Shown piece by piece: positions 422 to 56,246 of a stretch of DNA of 64,000 nucleotides. Position 1 is the stretch's first letter, and each line of letters opens with the position of its first letter. The notes under the pieces were generated by a model. That model did not search any database, had not been told where the DNA came from, and was given only the letters and a program-made list of their open reading frames with translations. The translations under genes and the position numbers were made by a program. Origin of the DNA: Spirochaeta cellobiosiphila DSM 17781 (GTDB lineage: Bacteria > Spirochaetota > Spirochaetia > DSM-17781); NCBI RefSeq assembly GCF_000426705.1, contig NZ_AUFW01000018.1, positions 1 through 64,000 on the forward strand, given 5' to 3'.

Positions 422-1000
422 CTATTTACTAGATTGCATTTTAAGGAATACCCGAAAGTAGTCAATAAAAGACAATACAGAGCTCAAAGCAGCTAAAATA
501 AAGACCACTAAAGTAACTCCATTCATAAGGGGATAGCTATTGGAACCTATGCCAACATTAAGCATTGTGTAATAGATCAATCCAATGAATCCAGAGAAAA
601 AGTAAAACCAGGCCTTAAGCTTACCACCTATACGAGCACCTTGGGCCTTACCTTTACCAAGCATCATCATTCTAAGAAATGTAATACCTAGTTCCCGATA
701 TATAATAATAGCAAAAATCCAAACAGGCATCATCCCAACATGAGTCAAACACAAAAACATTGTTACCCGACTAATGACATCCGCAAAGGGATCTAATAAC
801 TTGCCTACATCACTTACTAAGTTATACTTACGAGCAATATACCCATCTAGAATATCGGAAAATTCTCCTGCTAGATAAAGCAACCAAAGCAATGATAATA
901 AAACAATATTACCTGGATGGCTTTTGATAAAAAGAAAAAGCCCCAAGAAGACAGGCGTTGAAATGATTCTGGAAATAGTTATTTTGTTTGGTAAATTCAT
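422..1000 (-). CDS. pgsA: CDP-diacylglycerol--glycerol-3-phosphate 3-phosphatidyltransferase
   Basis: PgsA makes phosphatidylglycerophosphate from CDP-diacylglycerol and glycerol-3-phosphate, the committed step to phosphatidylglycerol, in the cytoplasmic membrane. The CDP-alcohol phosphotransferase signature D-G-x2-A-R-x8-G-x3-D-x3-D is complete at residues 52-74 (D52, G53, A56, R57, G66, D70, D74). Hydrophobic segments surround it, and the 192-residue length is normal. The ATG start is supported by N-terminal MNLPN, typical of the family. There is no Shine-Dalgarno sequence; a promoter ends 6 nt before the ATG, so the mRNA is probably leaderless. The gene lies between ssrA and the rRNA operon, all on the minus strand. 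The substrate assignment within the CDP-alcohol family is inferred. Confidence 0.92.
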   Translation of the reverse strand: MNLPNKITISRIISTPVFLGLFLFIKSHPGNIVLLSLLWLLYLAGEFSDILDGYIARKYNLVSDVGKLLDPFADVISRVTMFLCLTHVGMMPVWIFAIIIYRELGITFLRMMMLGKGKAQGARIGGKLKAWFYFFSGFIGLIYYTMLNVGIGSNSYPLMNGVTLVVFILAALSSVLSFIDYFRVFLKMQSSK

Positions 1001-1006
1001 TCTACA

Positions 1007-1035
1007 AAAATAGAATTACCAAATGACTTTGTCAA
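1007..1035 (-). promoter_or_regulatory. pgsA promoter, leaderless type
   Basis: TTGACA (1030-1035), a 17-nt spacer, then TATTTT (1007-1012), followed by 6 nt and the pgsA ATG. The expected transcription start coincides with the start codon. Confidence 0.75.
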
Positions 1036-1051
1036 TAGAAGATATACAAAC

Positions 1052-1078
1052 AAAAAAAGACCCTGATATACAGGGTCT
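1052..1078 (-). terminator. ssrA rho-independent terminator
   Basis: On the minus strand the stem AGACCCTG/CAGGGTCT has a 5-nt loop and is followed by a run of seven T. It starts 5 nt after the tmRNA 3' end. Confidence 0.9.
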
Positions 1079-9023: not shown

Positions 9024-10145
9024 CTATAATTGGACAAATCGGCCATTATCTCGTAACCGGTCCTGTATGTAATTTTTATTCAAATTCAAACGATTCACAA
9101 AATCTTTCAATATATCTAATGATAGAAGATTCCATTCACTAAATAAATAAATTAACGCCTTTTCTGCAATATAAGAGACCTTCAAGGCATTCATATTGAT
9201 TTCTCGTGGTTGGGGAACATCTACATATCGAGAAAAAAGGTCTTGAAACAATCGGCTCTCTTCAATTTTATTTTTCAGTGCATCCATTTCTTTATACAAC
9301 AATTCTGTATCCCCTTTGGTAGCCGCCTCACCAATAGGTTTAAGAAAAAGATAGGTATATTCCTTTCCAGGCAAATGATGATGTTCATCACACCTCGTAC
9401 AGTAATTGGGCTCTTCCGGATTGTCTTTTTTAACATCTCCCCCAATGATAATCAATGGATCGAAATACAAAGAAGGGCACTCATCACCATTAATAGTATA
9501 ATACCGGTAAGTGTGAAAACTGTCTGTTAAACAATCTGGATGCTCACAATAGGCTGTTAAAGGAAAGACATCTGTAGCATTTTCAACTAGTAATCTAGCG
9601 GTTGAGTTAAAAATTTCATTACGAAAGTTCAAGGTTAATGTGGGAAATACAAAATTGAGGCCTCTCAATTCGGAAGCTTGTTTGACCATATAAACAAGGC
9701 GTTCATCATAAAAGGAGGCTTCATCAATTATCCAGGTACCGATCTCTATTCGACTATTAATAATGCGTTCCATTTCAAAACTATTCTTAACAACAAAAAG
9801 ATGATCACCGAGACTAATGTATCCTCCACGATAAGCTAGAGAGTCCTCAGGATAATCAGGAAAACGGTTGACATCTAGATAATTACGAAAAAAACCGACC
9901 TCTCTTCTATCTGCTGATCCAGACATGGTGTGATGCTTGACAAAAGAATTCTTTTTTAGGACTACTTGTGAGTCCCGCCATATCTTTGCAGAATATTCTG
10001 TTTTGCCAGACCCCATTGGTCCTATAACAAGTATTCTTCTACCTGGTTTTGTAAAATCATAGTGATTGGCAGGGTGATGAATCTGTACTTGGGGAAAACC
10101 AAGACTTTTTAGAAAATAATTAGTAGGTTCATTGGAAATAGACAT
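9024..10145 (-). CDS. Thymidine kinase-like protein, large class II form
   Basis: The protein has 373 residues, nearly twice normal class II TK length. The P-loop GPMGSGKT is at residues 42-49, Walker B/DEASF at 140-145, and the lasso region has PLTAYC(200)...C(205) and C(249)TRC(252), a plausible structural zinc site. The insert between them and the ~110-residue C-terminal helical extension are unusual. It probably phosphorylates thymidine or deoxyuridine. It heads an operon with deoC and deoB, so salvage (kinase) and catabolism (aldolase/mutase) are co-expressed. There is no Shine-Dalgarno; a -10 box ends 8 nt before the ATG. Function is inferred from motifs and context. Confidence 0.82.
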
Positions 10146-10153
10146 AGTATTAG

Positions 10154-10182
10154 ATTATATGATGAAAAAAGGAGTGTGAGAA
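10154..10182 (-). promoter_or_regulatory. Promoter of tdk-like/deoC/deoB operon, near-leaderless
   Basis: TTCTCA (10177-10182, 4/6 to consensus), 17-nt spacer, then perfect TATAAT (10154-10159), 8 nt before the ATG. Confidence 0.6.
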
Positions 10183-22663: not shown

Positions 22664-22692
22664 TTGTTTAATTCTTCTTGTTAAGATATTAT
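22664..22692 (+). promoter_or_regulatory. Leaderless-type promoter of the membrane protein/M23 operon
   Basis: TTGTTT (22664-22669), 17-nt spacer, TATTAT (22687-22692), then 6 nt to the ATG at 22699. Confidence 0.7.
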
Positions 22693-22698
22693 TCAGGC

Positions 22699-23130
22699 AT
22701 GAAATTATTAAAAGACACTATTAAAGGTTATAAATTCATACTAGGAAAAGCTTTAAATATTGTTATCTTCTTTGCAATATCAGCATTCCTTAGTTTAGTT
22801 GTAGTTACTCCTTTGTGGTACTTAAGCCAAAATCATGGAAGGATATTTACAACTATAGTGCTACTACTTGTATTTTTAACGATATTCTTCTCCCTTTGGA
22901 ACATGGCAAGCAAACAAGTAAAGGAAACAGGAAGTTGGATAAAATGGATAAATAAGAATGTACTACCTATCGTAAGTAAACTAGCAGTTATTATTTTATT
23001 TATCATATCCTTAGCTCTTATTGTATTTGCACTTAATGGCCATATTCCTTTATATATCATCATTCCTGCTGGTTTTGTTGCTTTTTTGGTTATTGGGAAG
23101 ATGCTCTATGGATTTCAAGTTAATAAATAG
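22699..23130 (+). CDS. Four-helix membrane protein of unknown function
   Basis: The protein has 143 residues with about four membrane segments (LNIVIFFAISAFLSLVVVTP, IFTTIVLLLVFLTIFFSLW, VSKLAVIILFIISLALIVF and LYIIIPAGFVAFLVIGKM). I do not recognise the family. The ATG at 22699 was chosen because a promoter ends 6 nt before it. The stop overlaps the following M23 peptidase gene by 23 nt, so the two are coupled and may act together at the envelope. Confidence 0.65.
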   Translation: MKLLKDTIKGYKFILGKALNIVIFFAISAFLSLVVVTPLWYLSQNHGRIFTTIVLLLVFLTIFFSLWNMASKQVKETGSWIKWINKNVLPIVSKLAVIILFIISLALIVFALNGHIPLYIIIPAGFVAFLVIGKMLYGFQVNK

Positions 23131-25044: not shown

Positions 25045-25072
25045 GACCGGCACCCCCCCGTGCCGGTCTTTT
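25045..25072 (+). terminator. Rho-independent terminator
   Basis: Perfect 9-bp stem GACCGGCAC/GTGCCGGTC with a six-C loop, followed by TTTT. It ends the 22699-24969 operon and sits just before the PBP1A promoter. Confidence 0.92.
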
Positions 25073-25076
25073 AATC

Positions 25077-25105
25077 TTGACATTAACTGATCACTGACGT
25101 ACTGT
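25077..25105 (+). promoter_or_regulatory. PBP1A promoter, leaderless type
   Basis: TTGACA (25077-25082), 17-nt spacer, TACTGT (25100-25105), then 7 nt to the ATG at 25113. There is no Shine-Dalgarno sequence. Confidence 0.7.
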
Positions 25106-25112
25106 ACAGATT

Positions 25113-27683
25113 ATGACTTTTACAGGCAAAAAACGGATATTATTTATAAGCTTTTTTAGTGTAACAATTTTTTCTGCCATATTCATTGGTAGCCTTTTAG
25201 GTTGGGCTTTGGGTTCCAGTCAAAATATTCAAAACAGTGAAAAATTTGGACAATCCAACCCCGCTTTGCCAACACAAATTCTTGACATTAATGGAAACTT
25301 AATTACGGAATTCTTCTCTGATGAAAAGAGAGAAATCGTACCAATTACCCAGTTACCAGATAATTTAGTTAAATCACTAGTCACAAGAGAAGACCAGAAC
25401 TTCTTCAAACACTCTGGATTCGATATTATGGGTTTTTCCCGAGCCCTGGCAAATATTATTTTAGGTCGATATGTCTCTGGTGGTAGTACTTTGAGTCAGC
25501 AATTGGCTGGTAATATGTACGCAGACAGAACAAAACTAACGATAACCAGAAAGGTTCGTGAGTTATGGTGGGCTTTTCAACTTGAGAGAAAACTATCCAA
25601 ATGGGAAATCCTTGAAAATTATGTTAATAAGATGTATTTCGGGCACTCAACATATGGTGTTGAAGCAGCTAGTCAATTCTTCTTCAAGCATTCTGCCAGA
25701 TCTCTAAGTTTAGCGGAATCAGCTATGTTAGTTATTCAACTTGTTCGTCCAGAATTATATAGTCCAATTAAAAGGCCTAATTCTGCAAAGAAGATTCAAC
25801 ATATCCTCTTAGAACAGACAGTGGCAGCAGGTTTATATTCCCAGGAATATGTAGATCAAAGTTTTGAAGAATACTGGACCAATTATGACTGGCAGAGAGA
25901 TTCTACAGCCACTGCTTTCTTTGAAAGGGAAGATCAGTCTCCATATTTCTCAGAATATATTCGTGGAGAGTTGGACAACATTATTTATGGGGCACAAGAT
26001 ATATACAAAGACGGATATATTGTTCACACCACTCTTAATTTGGATTATCAGCGTCAAGCAGAAGAAATTATGTCAAGACGTATTAAAGAAGTTAACAACC
26101 AATATCAACGGGAAACTTTTCATAAAATGGACTTTGTCAATGATGAATATGTGCCCATCGTTGATTTACTATCTCTAGTCTATAATATAAATGATATACG
26201 TGTAGCAGGAGCCAAAAACAAGGCAAAAGCTAGACAACATTTTAAAGAAGATCTAACCCCTACACTGGATATATTAGCAACTGTATTTGGTATGACAGAT
26301 ATCAAAGACGTGGCCATCCGCTCAGTGTACCAAAGTCGACAGGATTCTAAGAAAAATGAAGTAGAAGGAGCCTTGATCACTTTAGATAACCGTACAGGTT
26401 ATATTCTAGCCATGGTAGGTGGTTCTAAATTTGATACTCTTAATCAGTTCAACAGAGCTGTTCAAGGAAAAATGCAACCGGGATCCTCTTTTAAACCACT
26501 TTATTATTCTGCTGCTATCTCTAGTCGAAAGTATACGCCCGCTACACGAATTGAAGATAAACCCATCGTTTTCTATAATGATGACGGGTCTTGGTACACA
26601 CCTTTAAATTATAAGGGAGAATGGGAAGGTTCTGTTCTACTGAGACAAGCCTTGGCCCACTCTATGAATGTACCAGCGGTCCAGGTTCTTGATGGAATTG
26701 GATTTGATGCGGCTATTAATAGAGCAAGCCGTATGTTAGGAATAACTGATCCAGAGGAAATCGCAAGAGTTTTCCCCAGAAAATACCCCCTAGCATTAGG
26801 TGTAATATCAGTATCACCCTTACAAATGGCTAGAGCATATGCAACGTTTCCCAATCAGGGAATGGAAGTTGATCCATTATCTATACGCTATGTTGAAGAC
26901 AGAGAAGGTAATATAATTGTATCTCCTGAAAAAGAATTAAGAGAACAACAGAAGTCAAGAGGCAAGTCATTACAAATAATGACACCACAAGAAGCCTATA
27001 TAATGGTAAGCATACTAAAGACAACAGTCAAAGAAGGTACATTAAGATGGGCGACTCATGACTATCTAACATATCCCTATTACAAAGGCTATAAAACAGG
27101 GCTTCCCATGCCAATGGCTGGTAAGACAGGAACAACTCAAAACTGGTCAGCAGCATGGACTGTTGGTTTTAGCCCCTATGTAACAACGGCCATATGGTTT
27201 GGATTTGATAAGTCAGGAAGCTCTTTAGGTTTGTATCTAACAGGAGCGACAGCAGCTGGTCCCACATGGGCAGAATATATGAGATCTATACATCAAGAAT
27301 TAGAACCTGTTGATTTTCCAAGACCAGAAAATGGACTTGTGGAAGTAAATATTGACTCCGAAACCGGAATGAGACCTACAGAATATTCGAAAGGAAAGGT
27401 TATCAAGGAGATATTTCTCTCAGGTACAGAACCAAGGGCTAACTCACAGGATATAGCTAAATATGAACATGATAGAGATGATGATTTGATTGAATCTATG
27501 AAGCAAGGAATATCTGCACAAATTTTACCTCTTGATGACTTAGATTTAAATATCACTACTAACCTTGATGATAATTACAGTTCTAACGATCTAGACTATG
27601 CTCTGGATTTAGATTTTGATTTTGATAGTGATTCATCCAGTTCGGCTGATCAAGAAGAACCTATAAACTCTCTATTGGACTAA
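25113..27683 (+). CDS. Bifunctional penicillin-binding protein 1A
   Basis: This is a class A PBP of 856 residues that polymerises and cross-links peptidoglycan. The N-terminal membrane anchor (~8-33) is followed by a GT51 glycosyltransferase (REDQNFFKHSGFDIMGFSRA, with catalytic Glu ~92; GGSTLSQQLAGNMY). The transpeptidase has MQPGSSFKPLYY (SxxK), AHSMNVPAVQ (SxN) and AGKTGTTQNWSAAW (KTG). The ~60-residue C-terminal tail is very acidic (DLDLNITTNLDDN..., DLDFDFDSDSSSS), which is unusual. It is transcribed alone or with the ParB-like gene. Confidence 0.95.
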   Translation: MTFTGKKRILFISFFSVTIFSAIFIGSLLGWALGSSQNIQNSEKFGQSNPALPTQILDINGNLITEFFSDEKREIVPITQLPDNLVKSLVTREDQNFFKHSGFDIMGFSRALANIILGRYVSGGSTLSQQLAGNMYADRTKLTITRKVRELWWAFQLERKLSKWEILENYVNKMYFGHSTYGVEAASQFFFKHSARSLSLAESAMLVIQLVRPELYSPIKRPNSAKKIQHILLEQTVAAGLYSQEYVDQSFEEYWTNYDWQRDSTATAFFEREDQSPYFSEYIRGELDNIIYGAQDIYKDGYIVHTTLNLDYQRQAEEIMSRRIKEVNNQYQRETFHKMDFVNDEYVPIVDLLSLVYNINDIRVAGAKNKAKARQHFKEDLTPTLDILATVFGMTDIKDVAIRSVYQSRQDSKKNEVEGALITLDNRTGYILAMVGGSKFDTLNQFNRAVQGKMQPGSSFKPLYYSAAISSRKYTPATRIEDKPIVFYNDDGSWYTPLNYKGEWEGSVLLRQALAHSMNVPAVQVLDGIGFDAAINRASRMLGITDPEEIARVFPRKYPLALGVISVSPLQMARAYATFPNQGMEVDPLSIRYVEDREGNIIVSPEKELREQQKSRGKSLQIMTPQEAYIMVSILKTTVKEGTLRWATHDYLTYPYYKGYKTGLPMPMAGKTGTTQNWSAAWTVGFSPYVTTAIWFGFDKSGSSLGLYLTGATAAGPTWAEYMRSIHQELEPVDFPRPENGLVEVNIDSETGMRPTEYSKGKVIKEIFLSGTEPRANSQDIAKYEHDRDDDLIESMKQGISAQILPLDDLDLNITTNLDDNYSSNDLDYALDLDFDFDSDSSSSADQEEPINSLLD

Positions 27684-27710: not shown

Positions 27711-28103
27711 ATGAAAGTTCCTATTAATCAAATCAAAGTAAGAAAACGTCTGAGAAAAGATTTAGGTAATCTGGAACCCCTAATAAATAGTCTCAAAAAG
27801 AACGGATTAATAAATCCCATACTAGTAACATCTGATTATTGTTTAATAGCTGGAGAAAGGAGACTTACGGCAGCAAAGAAACTAGGTTGGAATCAGATTC
27901 CAGTGTTAATTATTTCAGAAGCAACTAGTCTTACATTATTGGAATTAGAAATTGAAGAGAATCTACATAGAAAAAACCTATCCACAGAAGAACTCAAGGA
28001 AGGTTATCAAAGACTAGAACGTCTTCGTCGTCCTTCCTTAATCAATAGAATCAAAACCTTTCTAATGAACTTCTTTCATAGTATTTTCAAAAAAAAGGAT
28101 TAA
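27711..28103 (+). CDS. ParB N-terminal domain protein
   Basis: The 130-residue protein consists of a ParB/Srx-type domain only: an N-terminal VPINQIKVRKR, NPILVTSDYCLIAGERRLTAAKKLGW with the GERR box (CTP-binding in chromosomal ParB) and EIEENLHRKNLS. The central HTH and dimerisation domains of Spo0J/ParB are absent; the C-terminus is a short basic helix (INRIKTFLMNFFHSIFKKK) that could be amphipathic and membrane associated. A role with the neighbouring PBP1A is conceivable but unproven. It ends 4 nt inside the convergent pyrBI gene. Confidence 0.8.
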   Translation: MKVPINQIKVRKRLRKDLGNLEPLINSLKKNGLINPILVTSDYCLIAGERRLTAAKKLGWNQIPVLIISEATSLTLLELEIEENLHRKNLSTEELKEGYQRLERLRRPSLINRIKTFLMNFFHSIFKKKD

Positions 28104-36548: not shown

Positions 36549-37067
36549 TTACTTGAGAATCTCCTCAACCAAACTATCAATTTCACTTTGTTCCGCATCA
36601 AGTCGGCGTTCATAGGCCAACTCTTGGTTTGACTCCCTTAGCTTTCTAAGCAAACCATGGATTACGATCATTAAAACTTTCACACCGCTACTGGCATTTG
36701 CATTAATAAACTGTATTAATTGCTGGCGGTGTATCTTAAAAATTAGAGACTCACCCCTACTTCTAATTGTAGCGGTACGCTTCATTTTCAAAAAAATCCC
36801 AGCTTCACCAAAGACTTCCCCGCTTCCAATAGAAGATATGTAGACCTCCCCTTGTCCTTGCTTATTAACATGAACAGTAACAGTTCCTTCCATGACAGCA
36901 AAAAAGTGTAAGCTATCATCATGTTCTACAACAATATCCTCTAAATCTTTATATTTTATGAAGTCTCCTGCACTTTTCAAGCTTCTTAGTACATTATCAT
37001 CTAGGTATTTAAAGCATAATACTTTTTTTAAGAGAGCTATTTGATCTTTTTCTTCTTTTATTTTCAT
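36549..37067 (-). CDS. Cyclic nucleotide-binding domain protein without HTH
   Basis: The 172-residue protein has a CNB/Crp-like jelly roll (residues ~15-140) with IEDIVVEHDDSLHFFAVMEG-type strands, the phosphate-cassette-like region GSGEVFGEAGIF and TATIRSRGESLIFKI. No DNA-binding helix-turn-helix follows; the C-terminus is a coiled helix with RRLDAEQSEIDSL. It may be a regulatory subunit or membrane-event sensor. The mRNA is predicted to be leaderless. Confidence 0.85.
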   Translation of the reverse strand: MKIKEEKDQIALLKKVLCFKYLDDNVLRSLKSAGDFIKYKDLEDIVVEHDDSLHFFAVMEGTVTVHVNKQGQGEVYISSIGSGEVFGEAGIFLKMKRTATIRSRGESLIFKIHRQQLIQFINANASSGVKVLMIVIHGLLRKLRESNQELAYERRLDAEQSEIDSLVEEILK

Positions 37068-37073
37068 ATTTTC

Positions 37074-37102
37074 ATTTTAGATAAAATCATGTAGTTTTTC
37101 AA
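37074..37102 (-). promoter_or_regulatory. Promoter of the cNMP-binding gene, leaderless type
   Basis: TTGAAA (37097-37102), 17-nt spacer, TAAAAT (37074-37079), then 6 nt to the ATG. It overlaps the divergent mnmD start, which itself has a weaker candidate TTTTCA-N17-TAGTTT ending 6 nt before its GTG. Confidence 0.7.
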
Positions 37103-40406: not shown

Positions 40407-40435
40407 TTGATGTTAAATAAAAAGATTTCTATAGT
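40407..40435 (+). promoter_or_regulatory. Chorismate mutase promoter, leaderless type
   Basis: TTGATG (40407-40412), 17-nt spacer, TATAGT (40430-40435), then 5 nt to the ATG at 40441. Confidence 0.7.
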
Positions 40436-40440
40436 AAACT

Positions 40441-41172
40441 ATGAAGTTAGACTTGGATAAAATTGCTGCAAGACTTAGAAGTCTGGAAGAAGAAATCATT
40501 TATAAACTTATTAATAGGGTTCAGTATCCTCTAAACCTATGTGTCTATACTGATGGACAGAGTGGTTTTGCTCCTCACCAAAATGAGAGTTTGTTCGATC
40601 TAAGATTACGTTATCAAGAGGAAATGGATTCAATTTTTGGCAGATTTCTTGTTCCTGAAGAACGACCATTTTTTAATGGATTACCTAAATCAAGACGCGA
40701 ATTTAATGCTCATAATCCTTTGGATCTCAAAAATCTAAATGTTGTAAACCTAACTAGTGATCTAAAAAGTAGATATTTGGATATTGTTAGGCTATTTTGT
40801 GAAGATAAAGATGATGGTAATTATGGTTCAAGTGTCGAACATGATATTGCCCTTTTTCAGGCAATTATGCGACGAATACATTATGGATCACTATACGTGG
40901 CAGAAAGTAAATATAGACAAGCTCCAGATAAATACAAAGAGTTAATAAAACAATCTAAAAAACAAGAATTGTTAGTTTTATTAACCCGACAAGAGGTTGA
41001 GAATTCCATTCTGGACCGTATCGAAACAAAAACAAAAGAAATACAAAAAGATGTAGATAATAATTTACGTAATTTGGTTGATCCTAAATTAATGCGTACA
41101 TTATATGAAGAAACAATTATACCTCTTACAAAAGAAGGGGAAATCATCTATCTATTACAGAGGTCAATATGA
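40441..41172 (+). CDS. Chorismate mutase, eukaryotic AroQ-beta type
   Basis: Converts chorismate to prephenate for Phe/Tyr synthesis. The 243-residue length and motifs match the allosteric yeast/plant enzyme rather than the ~90-residue bacterial AroQ: LRSLEEEIIYKLINRVQYP at the N-terminus (active-site Arg), DDGNYGSS (the Gly-Ser of the yeast effector site), RRIHYGSLYVAESKYRQAP (active Arg and Lys), ELLVLLTRQEVENSILDRIE and the C-terminal IIPLTKEGEIIYLL (active Thr/Glu region). These correspond to yeast R16, R157, K168, T242 and E246. It is coupled to an HDAC-like gene by an ATGA overlap. A leaderless promoter precedes it. Confidence 0.9.
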   Translation: MKLDLDKIAARLRSLEEEIIYKLINRVQYPLNLCVYTDGQSGFAPHQNESLFDLRLRYQEEMDSIFGRFLVPEERPFFNGLPKSRREFNAHNPLDLKNLNVVNLTSDLKSRYLDIVRLFCEDKDDGNYGSSVEHDIALFQAIMRRIHYGSLYVAESKYRQAPDKYKELIKQSKKQELLVLLTRQEVENSILDRIETKTKEIQKDVDNNLRNLVDPKLMRTLYEETIIPLTKEGEIIYLLQRSI

Positions 41173-54108: not shown

Positions 54109-55539
54109 TTATCTATATTTTTGTTTTACAATAGAACCTAAGGTTATAATAGCTTTTTCAATGGACTCATTAATAGGACTAGCAAAGGATATTCTAAGAA
54201 AATTACTGTATTTATTCTCTGCAGAAAAAGCTTGTCCTGGAACGACACTGATTCCATGCTCTAAAGCTTCTTCAAATATTTCCAGACTGTCTATTTCATT
54301 GGAAAGCTCAACCCAAAGGTAATACCCTCCTTTAGGTTGAGAGATTCTAATATTATGAGGAAAATGTAATAGAATAAGACTAGTCATTTGTTTTGATTGA
54401 TAACACATAGTTTTTTGAAGATGAGCTAATTGCTTATGATATTGTTTAGTATTAAGATACTGTGCAATAGCTTTTTGTATTAATCCATTAGTACCTAATG
54501 TAGTCGCAAACTTTAAATCACGACATTTCTTATGTAATCTACCACCTAAAATCCAGCCAATGCGACTTCCAGGAGATATTGTTTTTGATAGAGAAGAACA
54601 ATACAGGACCTCCCCTTCTTTGTCATAACTTTTAATAGGTAATTCATTTTTATTATAAAATCCACAATCATTATAGACATCATCTTCGATAATATAAACT
54701 TTATGTTCCATCCCTAATTTAACTATTTTTTCTCTATTTTTTTCTGGCATAACATAGCCAAGAGGATTTTGATATAAGGAAGTCACAATGAAGGCTTTAA
54801 CATCTTCCTCTTTCAAAACGTTGCTCAGGATTTCCAGGTCTATACCATTTTCTGACGAAGTTGGAATAGAAATAATCCTACGTTTTAATTCCTTAAGAAG
54901 TTGAATTGTACCTAAAAATACCGGGCTTTCGATGGCAATAATATCCCCAGGATGAGAACATGATTGTATAGCCATAGAAAGAGCTTCTATACAACCATTA
55001 GTTATTGTTATCTCTGAAGGGTTTACTTCAACACCACGGAAACTCATAAGTTCTGCTACGGAAATACGTAAGTCAAGATCACCTTGTGCATGAGTATAAT
55101 CAACCAAACTACTAGGATCGTTAGTTAGCAATTTGTTAATTCGACTCTTTATAGCATTCAGAGGTAAATAGGTAGTGTCAGGAACGCCCGCACCAAGAGG
55201 TATAATACTATGATCATTGCTTGCTTCCACTACTCGTCCTAGAATACTTAGAGGAATGGCCTCCTTAGATGATAAAGTGAACCCTTCCCGTTCATTTGTG
55301 GGTAAGGGAATGTTTATTTGATGAGATACATAGTAACCTGATTTTTCTATTGAATATATTTTACCTTGACCTTCCAATATGGAATAAGCTTGCATTATGA
55401 CAGAAATAGAACAATTGTATTTTTGGCTTAATATACGAAGAGATGGTAACTTGCTTCCCCTGCTTATTATCTCTTTATCTATTGAATTATTAATATCATC
55501 AGCGATGTCTTCGTATAAGTATTGATTACTATTCACCAT
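54109..55539 (-). CDS. MocR-type transcriptional regulator (GntR HTH + aminotransferase domain)
   Basis: The 476-residue protein has an N-terminal GntR winged helix (~8-72: GSKLPSLRILSQKYNCSISV) and a PLP-dependent aminotransferase-like domain (~100-476) with SSLSKTISPGSRIGW, where the Lys would bind PLP. Such regulators (PdxR, GabR) sense PLP or amino compounds. It is divergent from a LysE-type exporter and has a perfect palindrome over its own promoter and start codon, suggesting autoregulation and control of the exporter. Confidence 0.9.
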   Translation of the reverse strand: MVNSNQYLYEDIADDINNSIDKEIISRGSKLPSLRILSQKYNCSISVIMQAYSILEGQGKIYSIEKSGYYVSHQINIPLPTNEREGFTLSSKEAIPLSILGRVVEASNDHSIIPLGAGVPDTTYLPLNAIKSRINKLLTNDPSSLVDYTHAQGDLDLRISVAELMSFRGVEVNPSEITITNGCIEALSMAIQSCSHPGDIIAIESPVFLGTIQLLKELKRRIISIPTSSENGIDLEILSNVLKEEDVKAFIVTSLYQNPLGYVMPEKNREKIVKLGMEHKVYIIEDDVYNDCGFYNKNELPIKSYDKEGEVLYCSSLSKTISPGSRIGWILGGRLHKKCRDLKFATTLGTNGLIQKAIAQYLNTKQYHKQLAHLQKTMCYQSKQMTSLILLHFPHNIRISQPKGGYYLWVELSNEIDSLEIFEEALEHGISVVPGQAFSAENKYSNFLRISFASPINESIEKAIITLGSIVKQKYR

Positions 55540-55562
55540 AACAGAACAGTAATCTGTTATGG
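55536..55562. promoter_or_regulatory. Palindromic operator at the MocR start
   Basis: CCATAACAGA-N7-TCTGTTATGG, a perfect 10-bp inverted repeat (55536-55545 and 55553-55562). It covers the -10 box and ATG of the MocR gene. A further half-site ATCTGTTATTG lies at 55583-55593 toward the LysE gene. Confidence 0.7.
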
Positions 55563-55574
55563 TATAATTGTCAA
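55546..55574 (-). promoter_or_regulatory. MocR promoter, leaderless type
   Basis: TTGACA (55569-55574), 17-nt spacer, TACTGT (55546-55551), then 6 nt to the ATG. The operator overlaps it. Confidence 0.7.
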
Positions 55575-55640
55575 TTTTCTGTATCTGTTATTGTTACAAA
55601 ATGAAGTTTATAATCATGTAATCAATAAGGAGCTTATAAA

Positions 55641-56246
55641 ATGAATACAATGTCCATTATTCCACTTATTTTATTTGTCATAATGATGACTTTGACACCA
55701 GGTCCTAATAATATGTTATTAACAGCAACTGGAGCCCAATTTGGTTATAAGAAAACGATACCTCTTATCATGGGAATTATTATTGGTGTATTAAGTCTAT
55801 TACTGCTAAGTGCATTAGGATTAGGTATACTTTTTACAAGGTATGAGATTATACATAAAATACTAAAAGTTCTGGGGATTTCTTACATTTTGTATCTATC
55901 TTTAAAGATACTCTTAAGCTCTTCTGCTAAACATACAAATGTTGTAGAAGAAAACAAGCAAGCACCGGGAATAGTAAATGGCCTATTTCTGCAATTTTTT
56001 AACCCAAAAGCCTATCTAATGACCATTACAGCCACCTCTGTTTATGGACAGATACATCCAAGTTATACAACATCCATACTAGTTATATTTCTTGTTTTTT
56101 TCATTATTACCCCTTTATCCATTTCCTGTTGGGCAATATTTGGCTCCTCATTAAAGACTATAATGACTGATAAGGTTTGGAATAAACGCTTAAAAATAAG
56201 TCTTTCCGTGTTAACAGCCTTATCAGGTATTTTTATTATACTATAA
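55641..56246 (+). CDS. LysE/RhtB family amino acid exporter
   Basis: The 201-residue membrane protein has about six hydrophobic segments and the N-terminal family signature MTLTPGPNNMLLTATGAQFGYKK region (~13-35). It exports an amino acid or related compound, not identifiable by sequence. AAGGAG precedes the ATG. The end overlaps the convergent hypothetical gene by 11 nt. Confidence 0.9.
   Translation: MNTMSIIPLILFVIMMTLTPGPNNMLLTATGAQFGYKKTIPLIMGIIIGVLSLLLLSALGLGILFTRYEIIHKILKVLGISYILYLSLKILLSSSAKHTNVVEENKQAPGIVNGLFLQFFNPKAYLMTITATSVYGQIHPSYTTSILVIFLVFFIITPLSISCWAIFGSSLKTIMTDKVWNKRLKISLSVLTALSGIFIIL

Follow-up and report, generated by a model that had tools for sequence, protein, structure and literature searches.

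What does it mean when a gene without a usable Shine-Dalgarno (SD) site has its promoter almost on top of its start codon, and how general is this arrangement in the genome and in the class to which it belongs? The question is raised by the gene for a PBP1A-family bifunctional transglycosylase/transpeptidase (25113..27683, + strand; TIGR02074, 584.7 bits), whose −10 element ends 7 nt before the ATG. Leaderless starts are a recognized minor mode of translation initiation, often regarded as rare except in Actinobacteria, Deinococcus, and archaea. The window, i.e., the whole stretch of DNA analyzed (64,000 nt, 35% GC), opens contig 4 of a genome of 3.95 Mb, and the closest PBP1A relatives are in Spirochaetia. 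On sequence evidence, we consider it very likely that close-set sigma-70 promoters start RNA at or near the ATG, that the resulting mRNAs are leaderless, and that such genes are widespread in the class Spirochaetia. Promoter architecture, its enrichment, the absence of SD sites, two terminators, and conservation were observed directly; where the transcripts truly begin, and that they are translated without a leader, we infer from these.

Close-Set Promoters in the Window

Seven genes in the window had been flagged in an earlier note as carrying such promoters, and all seven sites are present where it placed them, each consisting of a TTGACA-like box, 17 nt, TAnnnT, a further 5–8 nt, and an ATG, without a usable SD site. 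The spacer is 17 nt and the −10 matches TAnnnT in 7/7; four of the seven promoters are on the minus strand. A perfect TTGACA is found at pgsA (1007..1035, − strand; TTGACA-17-TATTTT, 6 nt to the ATG at 1000), at PBP1A (25077..25105, + strand; TTGACA-17-TACTGT, 7 nt to the ATG at 25113), and at a MocR-family regulator gene (gene 54109–55539, promoter 55546..55574, − strand; TTGACA-17-TACTGT, 6 nt to the ATG at 55539). Two further promoters belong to a cNMP-binding-domain gene (gene 36549–37067, promoter 37074..37102, − strand; TTGAAA-17-TAAAAT, 6 nt to the ATG at 37067; score 10.7) and a chorismate mutase gene (gene 40441–41172, promoter 40407..40435, + strand; TTGATG-17-TATAGT, 5 nt to the ATG at 40441). 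The −35 is weak at a thymidine-kinase-like gene (10154..10182, − strand; TTCTCA-17-TATAAT, 8 nt to the ATG at 10145; score 9.0) and at a gene for a small membrane protein (22664..22692, + strand; TTGTTT-17-TATTAT, 6 nt to the ATG at 22699), the latter being the weakest of the seven with a score of 6.1. Leaderless-type genes make up 7/59 genes in the window vs. 47/981 elsewhere (p = 0.03).

Some of these genes have further features of their own. The thymidine-kinase-like protein (9024..10145, − strand; 373 aa) scores 24.8 bits against the Pfam TK model (cutoff 20.6) and 40.6 against the NCBIfam TK model, below its cutoff of 183; it is 53–66% identical across many Spirochaetia despite these weak matches, and is possibly a distinct P-loop family. 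The chorismate mutase belongs to the plant/yeast type (TIGR01802, 169 bits against a cutoff of 170.9), which is patchy in Spirochaetia (14/60 genomes). At the MocR gene, an 11-bp perfect inverted repeat, ACCATAACAGA-N7-TCTGTTATGGT (55535..55563), spans the −10 and the start codon; it is a likely MocR operator, with a putative role in autoregulation, and takes in the initiation codon of a predicted leaderless gene. A third half-site lies at 55584–55594, toward a divergent LysE-like gene at 55641.

Enrichment Across the Genome

Upstream regions were surveyed in a sample of 1.225 Mb (31%) of the same genome containing about 1040 genes, whose starts were predicted by home-made gene calling from coding potential alone, with promoter and SD signals unused. 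A peak of −10 elements 5–8 nt before the start codons of genes lacking AGGAG had been predicted, and it was found sharply at 6–8 nt. With d denoting the number of nucleotides between the −10 and the start codon, TANNNT ended at d = 6, 7, and 8 in 24, 33, and 15 of 282 operon-first non-SD genes (about 10 at neighboring distances), compared to 5, 5, and 2 of 341 operon-first SD genes, where −10-like motifs become frequent again only at about 14 nt and beyond. An alternative start-choice rule gave the same distance profile. The confinement of the peak to non-SD genes, with SD genes alongside, agrees with the proposal that both initiation modes operate in one genome.

The expected enrichment over shuffled upstream sequences was likewise obtained. 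A full promoter at d = 5–8 (sigma-70 weight matrix, score of at least 7) was present in 54/279 non-SD genes vs. 3.7 ± 2.2 (at most 9) over 60 rounds of dinucleotide shuffling, and at a stricter score of at least 9 the counts were 26 vs. 0.6. The predicted leaderless genes have a −10 ending 5–8 nt before the start, lack an SD site, and begin with ATG (54/54). About 5% of genes, or one in twenty, appear from these counts to be leaderless, with most of the seven flagged genes among them, beside a dominant SD mode. A strict TATAAT/TTGA pattern showed no excess in this genome (6 vs. 6 at a control distance), probably because the −10s are degenerate, and gene-based counts therefore took over from strict TATAAT pattern counts.

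Spacing and Promoter Type

Among the 54 predicted sites, the spacer is 17 nt in 38, 16 in 7, 18 in 7, and 19 in 2. When TTG upstream of a TANNNT at d = 6–8 was simply counted, with no promoter model, a spacer of 17 had 22 occurrences, followed by 18 with 8 and 16 with 4, vs. about 1.7 at other spacers. The earlier note had stressed a spacing of exactly 17 nt, which stands for all seven flagged sites and as the mode genome-wide, but not as a constant; the uniformity among the seven partly reflects which sites were noticed. Seventeen nucleotides is the modal sigma-70 spacing and no exclusive rule. In having a TTGACA-like −35 and a TATAAT-like −10 separated by 16–18 nt, these are sigma-70 promoters; what sets them apart is their unusual position relative to the start codon and a −10 often reduced to TAnnnT. 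Replacement of the −35 by an extended −10 (TG) is slight at most (10/98 vs. 27/501 elsewhere).

Predicted Transcription Start and Leader Length

We propose that these housekeeping sigma-70 type promoters lie so near the start codon that transcription would begin on the A of the ATG or no more than 1–2 nt from it. Since +1 usually follows the −10 by 7 nt, a distance of d = 6 would place +1 exactly on that A. The resulting mRNA would have neither a leader nor an SD site, and translation would initiate at the 5′-terminal AUG, in a 70S- or IF2/fMet-tRNA-dependent manner as in other bacteria. If +1 is the A, a pyrimidine is expected at −1, because this is the normal preference before a start site; one is found in 34/42 leaderless-type genes vs. 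297/640 SD genes (p = 1e−5).

The alternative that survives best is a very short leader of 1–5 nt, translated via an S1- or AT-rich-driven mechanism, and we regard it as possible, with a clear minority share of the probability. Distances of d = 7–8 in part of the set could place +1 at −1 or −2, and AT-rich non-SD signals have been discussed (PMC3160421; PMC5397173). The modal d of 6 and the pyrimidine/A step at −1/+1, however, indicate the A itself, and S1 sites have no room in 5 nt or less.

The PBP1A and pgsA Loci

At PBP1A, just 8 nt separate the −35 from the end of the strong intrinsic terminator of the preceding transcript (25045..25068, + strand; −19.8 kcal/mol, z −4.45). The pgsA gene, encoding CDP-diacylglycerol–glycerol-3-phosphate phosphatidyltransferase (422..1000, − strand; TIGR00560, 133 bits, cutoff 109), has an intrinsic terminator directly upstream of its promoter as well: that of a tmRNA (1058..1078, − strand), a stem followed by a T-run, with the stem about 22 nt before the −35, T-run included. 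Because terminators directly precede both −35s, no other, leadered promoter fits downstream of them.

The tmRNA gene itself (1083–1438, − strand; tag AEDNFALAA) lies just upstream of pgsA, and the contig begins, at an assembly break, within the 5′ end of a 16S rRNA gene (1–144, − strand). Just after PBP1A is a gene for a small ParB/Noc-like protein (27711–28103). A putative leaderless promoter of this gene coincides in part with a hairpin, ACTCTCTATT...AATAGAGAGT, which may be the PBP1A terminator.

Conservation Across Spirochaetia

Orthologues of PBP1A, pgsA, and the thymidine-kinase-like, cNMP, and chorismate mutase genes were compared using a strict test that undercounts variants, namely TTGACA (at least 5 of 6)-(16–18)-TAnnnT-(4–9)-start. 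Of the 104 Spirochaetia loci whose PBP1A start could be read, 76 have the architecture, vs. 0.6% of random ATGs in the same loci. For pgsA, 18 of 29 orthologues have it, spread over several families (null 0.8%); both are above the null range of 0.3–0.8%. Within the conserved PBP1A loci, the spacer is 17 nt in 68, d is 6 in 43, and the start codon is ATG in 73, while an SD of 5 or more occurs in 1 of the 28 remaining loci. For pgsA, the remaining 11 orthologues comprise four with an SD site and seven with neither by these rules.

The sequence logo of the 68 PBP1A loci with a 17-nt spacer is shaped by the test, which admits only loci with a TTGACA match and TA...T. The −35 is extended as TTGACAA(A), the trailing As being unselected by the test. 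Little information lies in most of the spacer, constraint is weak at the central positions of the −10, and the flanking sequence varies freely. We also considered whether the pgsA promoter might be conserved as a by-product of a conserved neighbor. Adjacency of a tmRNA gene to pgsA was not found in 28 relatives, which rules this out.

The other three genes behave differently. Under the strict test, the architecture was found in 0/29, 1/24, and 0/13 orthologues of the thymidine-kinase-like, cNMP, and chorismate mutase genes, respectively; most have an SD site or neither, with SD sites in most cNMP orthologues. Leaderless status was shared by 2/7 reciprocal-best-hit orthologues vs. 6/100, a difference that is not significant with only seven pairs (p = 0.085). 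Gene-based profiles nevertheless show a −10 peak at d = 6 in three other families (genomes G023, G025, and G024), and class-wide pattern counts exceed a displaced-distance control in many genomes (e.g., 55 vs. 24 in G139, 38 vs. 7 in G148, and 39 vs. 16 in G023). Some lineages (G139, G102, G148, G023, and G134) have several-fold more leaderless-type promoters than others. On these comparisons the leaderless mode appears to be widespread in the class and its use labile at most genes, PBP1A and pgsA being unusual in keeping it.

Such long-term retention at PBP1A and pgsA, together with a predicted leaderless murA in this genome, would suit a dedicated regulon in which PBP1A, pgsA, and others are kept leaderless for coordinated, stress-dependent control of translation. 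We think this improbable: the rest of the predicted set includes genes for a PTS enzyme I-type protein, Rex, PyrG, an AspS-type tRNA synthetase, TrmE/MnmE, TypA, and MarR and AraC regulators, most orthologues beyond PBP1A and pgsA vary, and no regulator was seen. The set is one of mixed housekeeping functions with no obvious regulon.

It is quite unlikely that the promoters are real and the true start codons lie further downstream, which would give ordinary leaders. The start codons were predicted, and wrong starts are enriched among non-SD genes; yet the N-termini of PgsA and PBP1A align across families from the proposed ATG, which in pgsA (start MNLPNKIT) precedes a conserved MNLPNK(I/L)T in relatives. 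Downstream candidate codons usually lack an SD site, and in many genes the −10 sits at exactly d = 6–7, which misplaced starts would not produce.

Chance, i.e., seven good sites picked from an AT-rich genome full of TAnnnT and TTG look-alikes, is least credible of all and is refuted as a general account by the excess over shuffles, the limitation of the peak to d = 6–8 and to non-SD genes, and the class-wide conservation at two genes, although with 35% GC, loose motifs, and weak −35s at the 22699 and thymidine-kinase-like genes it could still explain individual weak sites such as that at 22699.

Relation to Known Leaderless Genes

Leaderless genes are already known for this phylum, both as predictions (PMC3160421) and as transcripts mapped in Leptospira (PMC5243855). 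In Leptospira interrogans, dRNA-seq identified about 440 mRNAs with a 5′UTR of <10 nt, including 170–184 with a start site on the start codon (PMC5243855). That spirochaete likewise has leaderless beside leadered genes, but it belongs to a different class and its starts were mapped experimentally; our results are predictions, and add the retention at PBP1A and pgsA across Spirochaetia. Zheng et al. (2011) described “TA-led” genes, in which TAnnnT precedes the start codon by about 10–12 bp; among 18 spirochaete genomes, they detected such genes in 6, where these made up 1.8–6.9% of the total (PMC3160421). Our estimate of about 5% falls within that range; whereas they used the −10 alone, we add the −35, the 17-nt spacing, flanking terminators, and conservation at single genes. 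In mycobacteria, the −10 is juxtaposed to ATG or GTG and orthologues often share leaderless status (PMC4633059). The −10 adjoins the start codon there as it does here, but leaderless genes are much more common and use GTG too, in contrast to about 5% of genes, only ATG in the predicted set, and a marked TTGACA −35 in the present genome. A literature search, with most subscription journals outside its reach, found no prior report of class-wide retention at PBP1A or pgsA.

One practical consequence is that gene callers that depend on SD sites may misplace starts in Spirochaetia. More broadly, a low-GC spirochaete genome that mixes SD and leaderless genes, with two core envelope genes that have kept the predicted leaderless state across many families, offers a clean natural system in which to ask whether that state is under selection or drifts. 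A tentative reading, which we hold to be possible though far from favored, is that selection has maintained the leaderless state at PBP1A and pgsA from an early point in the history of the class, and that this would make envelope synthesis follow the state of the ribosome (e.g., the availability of 70S or the levels of initiation factors), as it would not with an SD leader.
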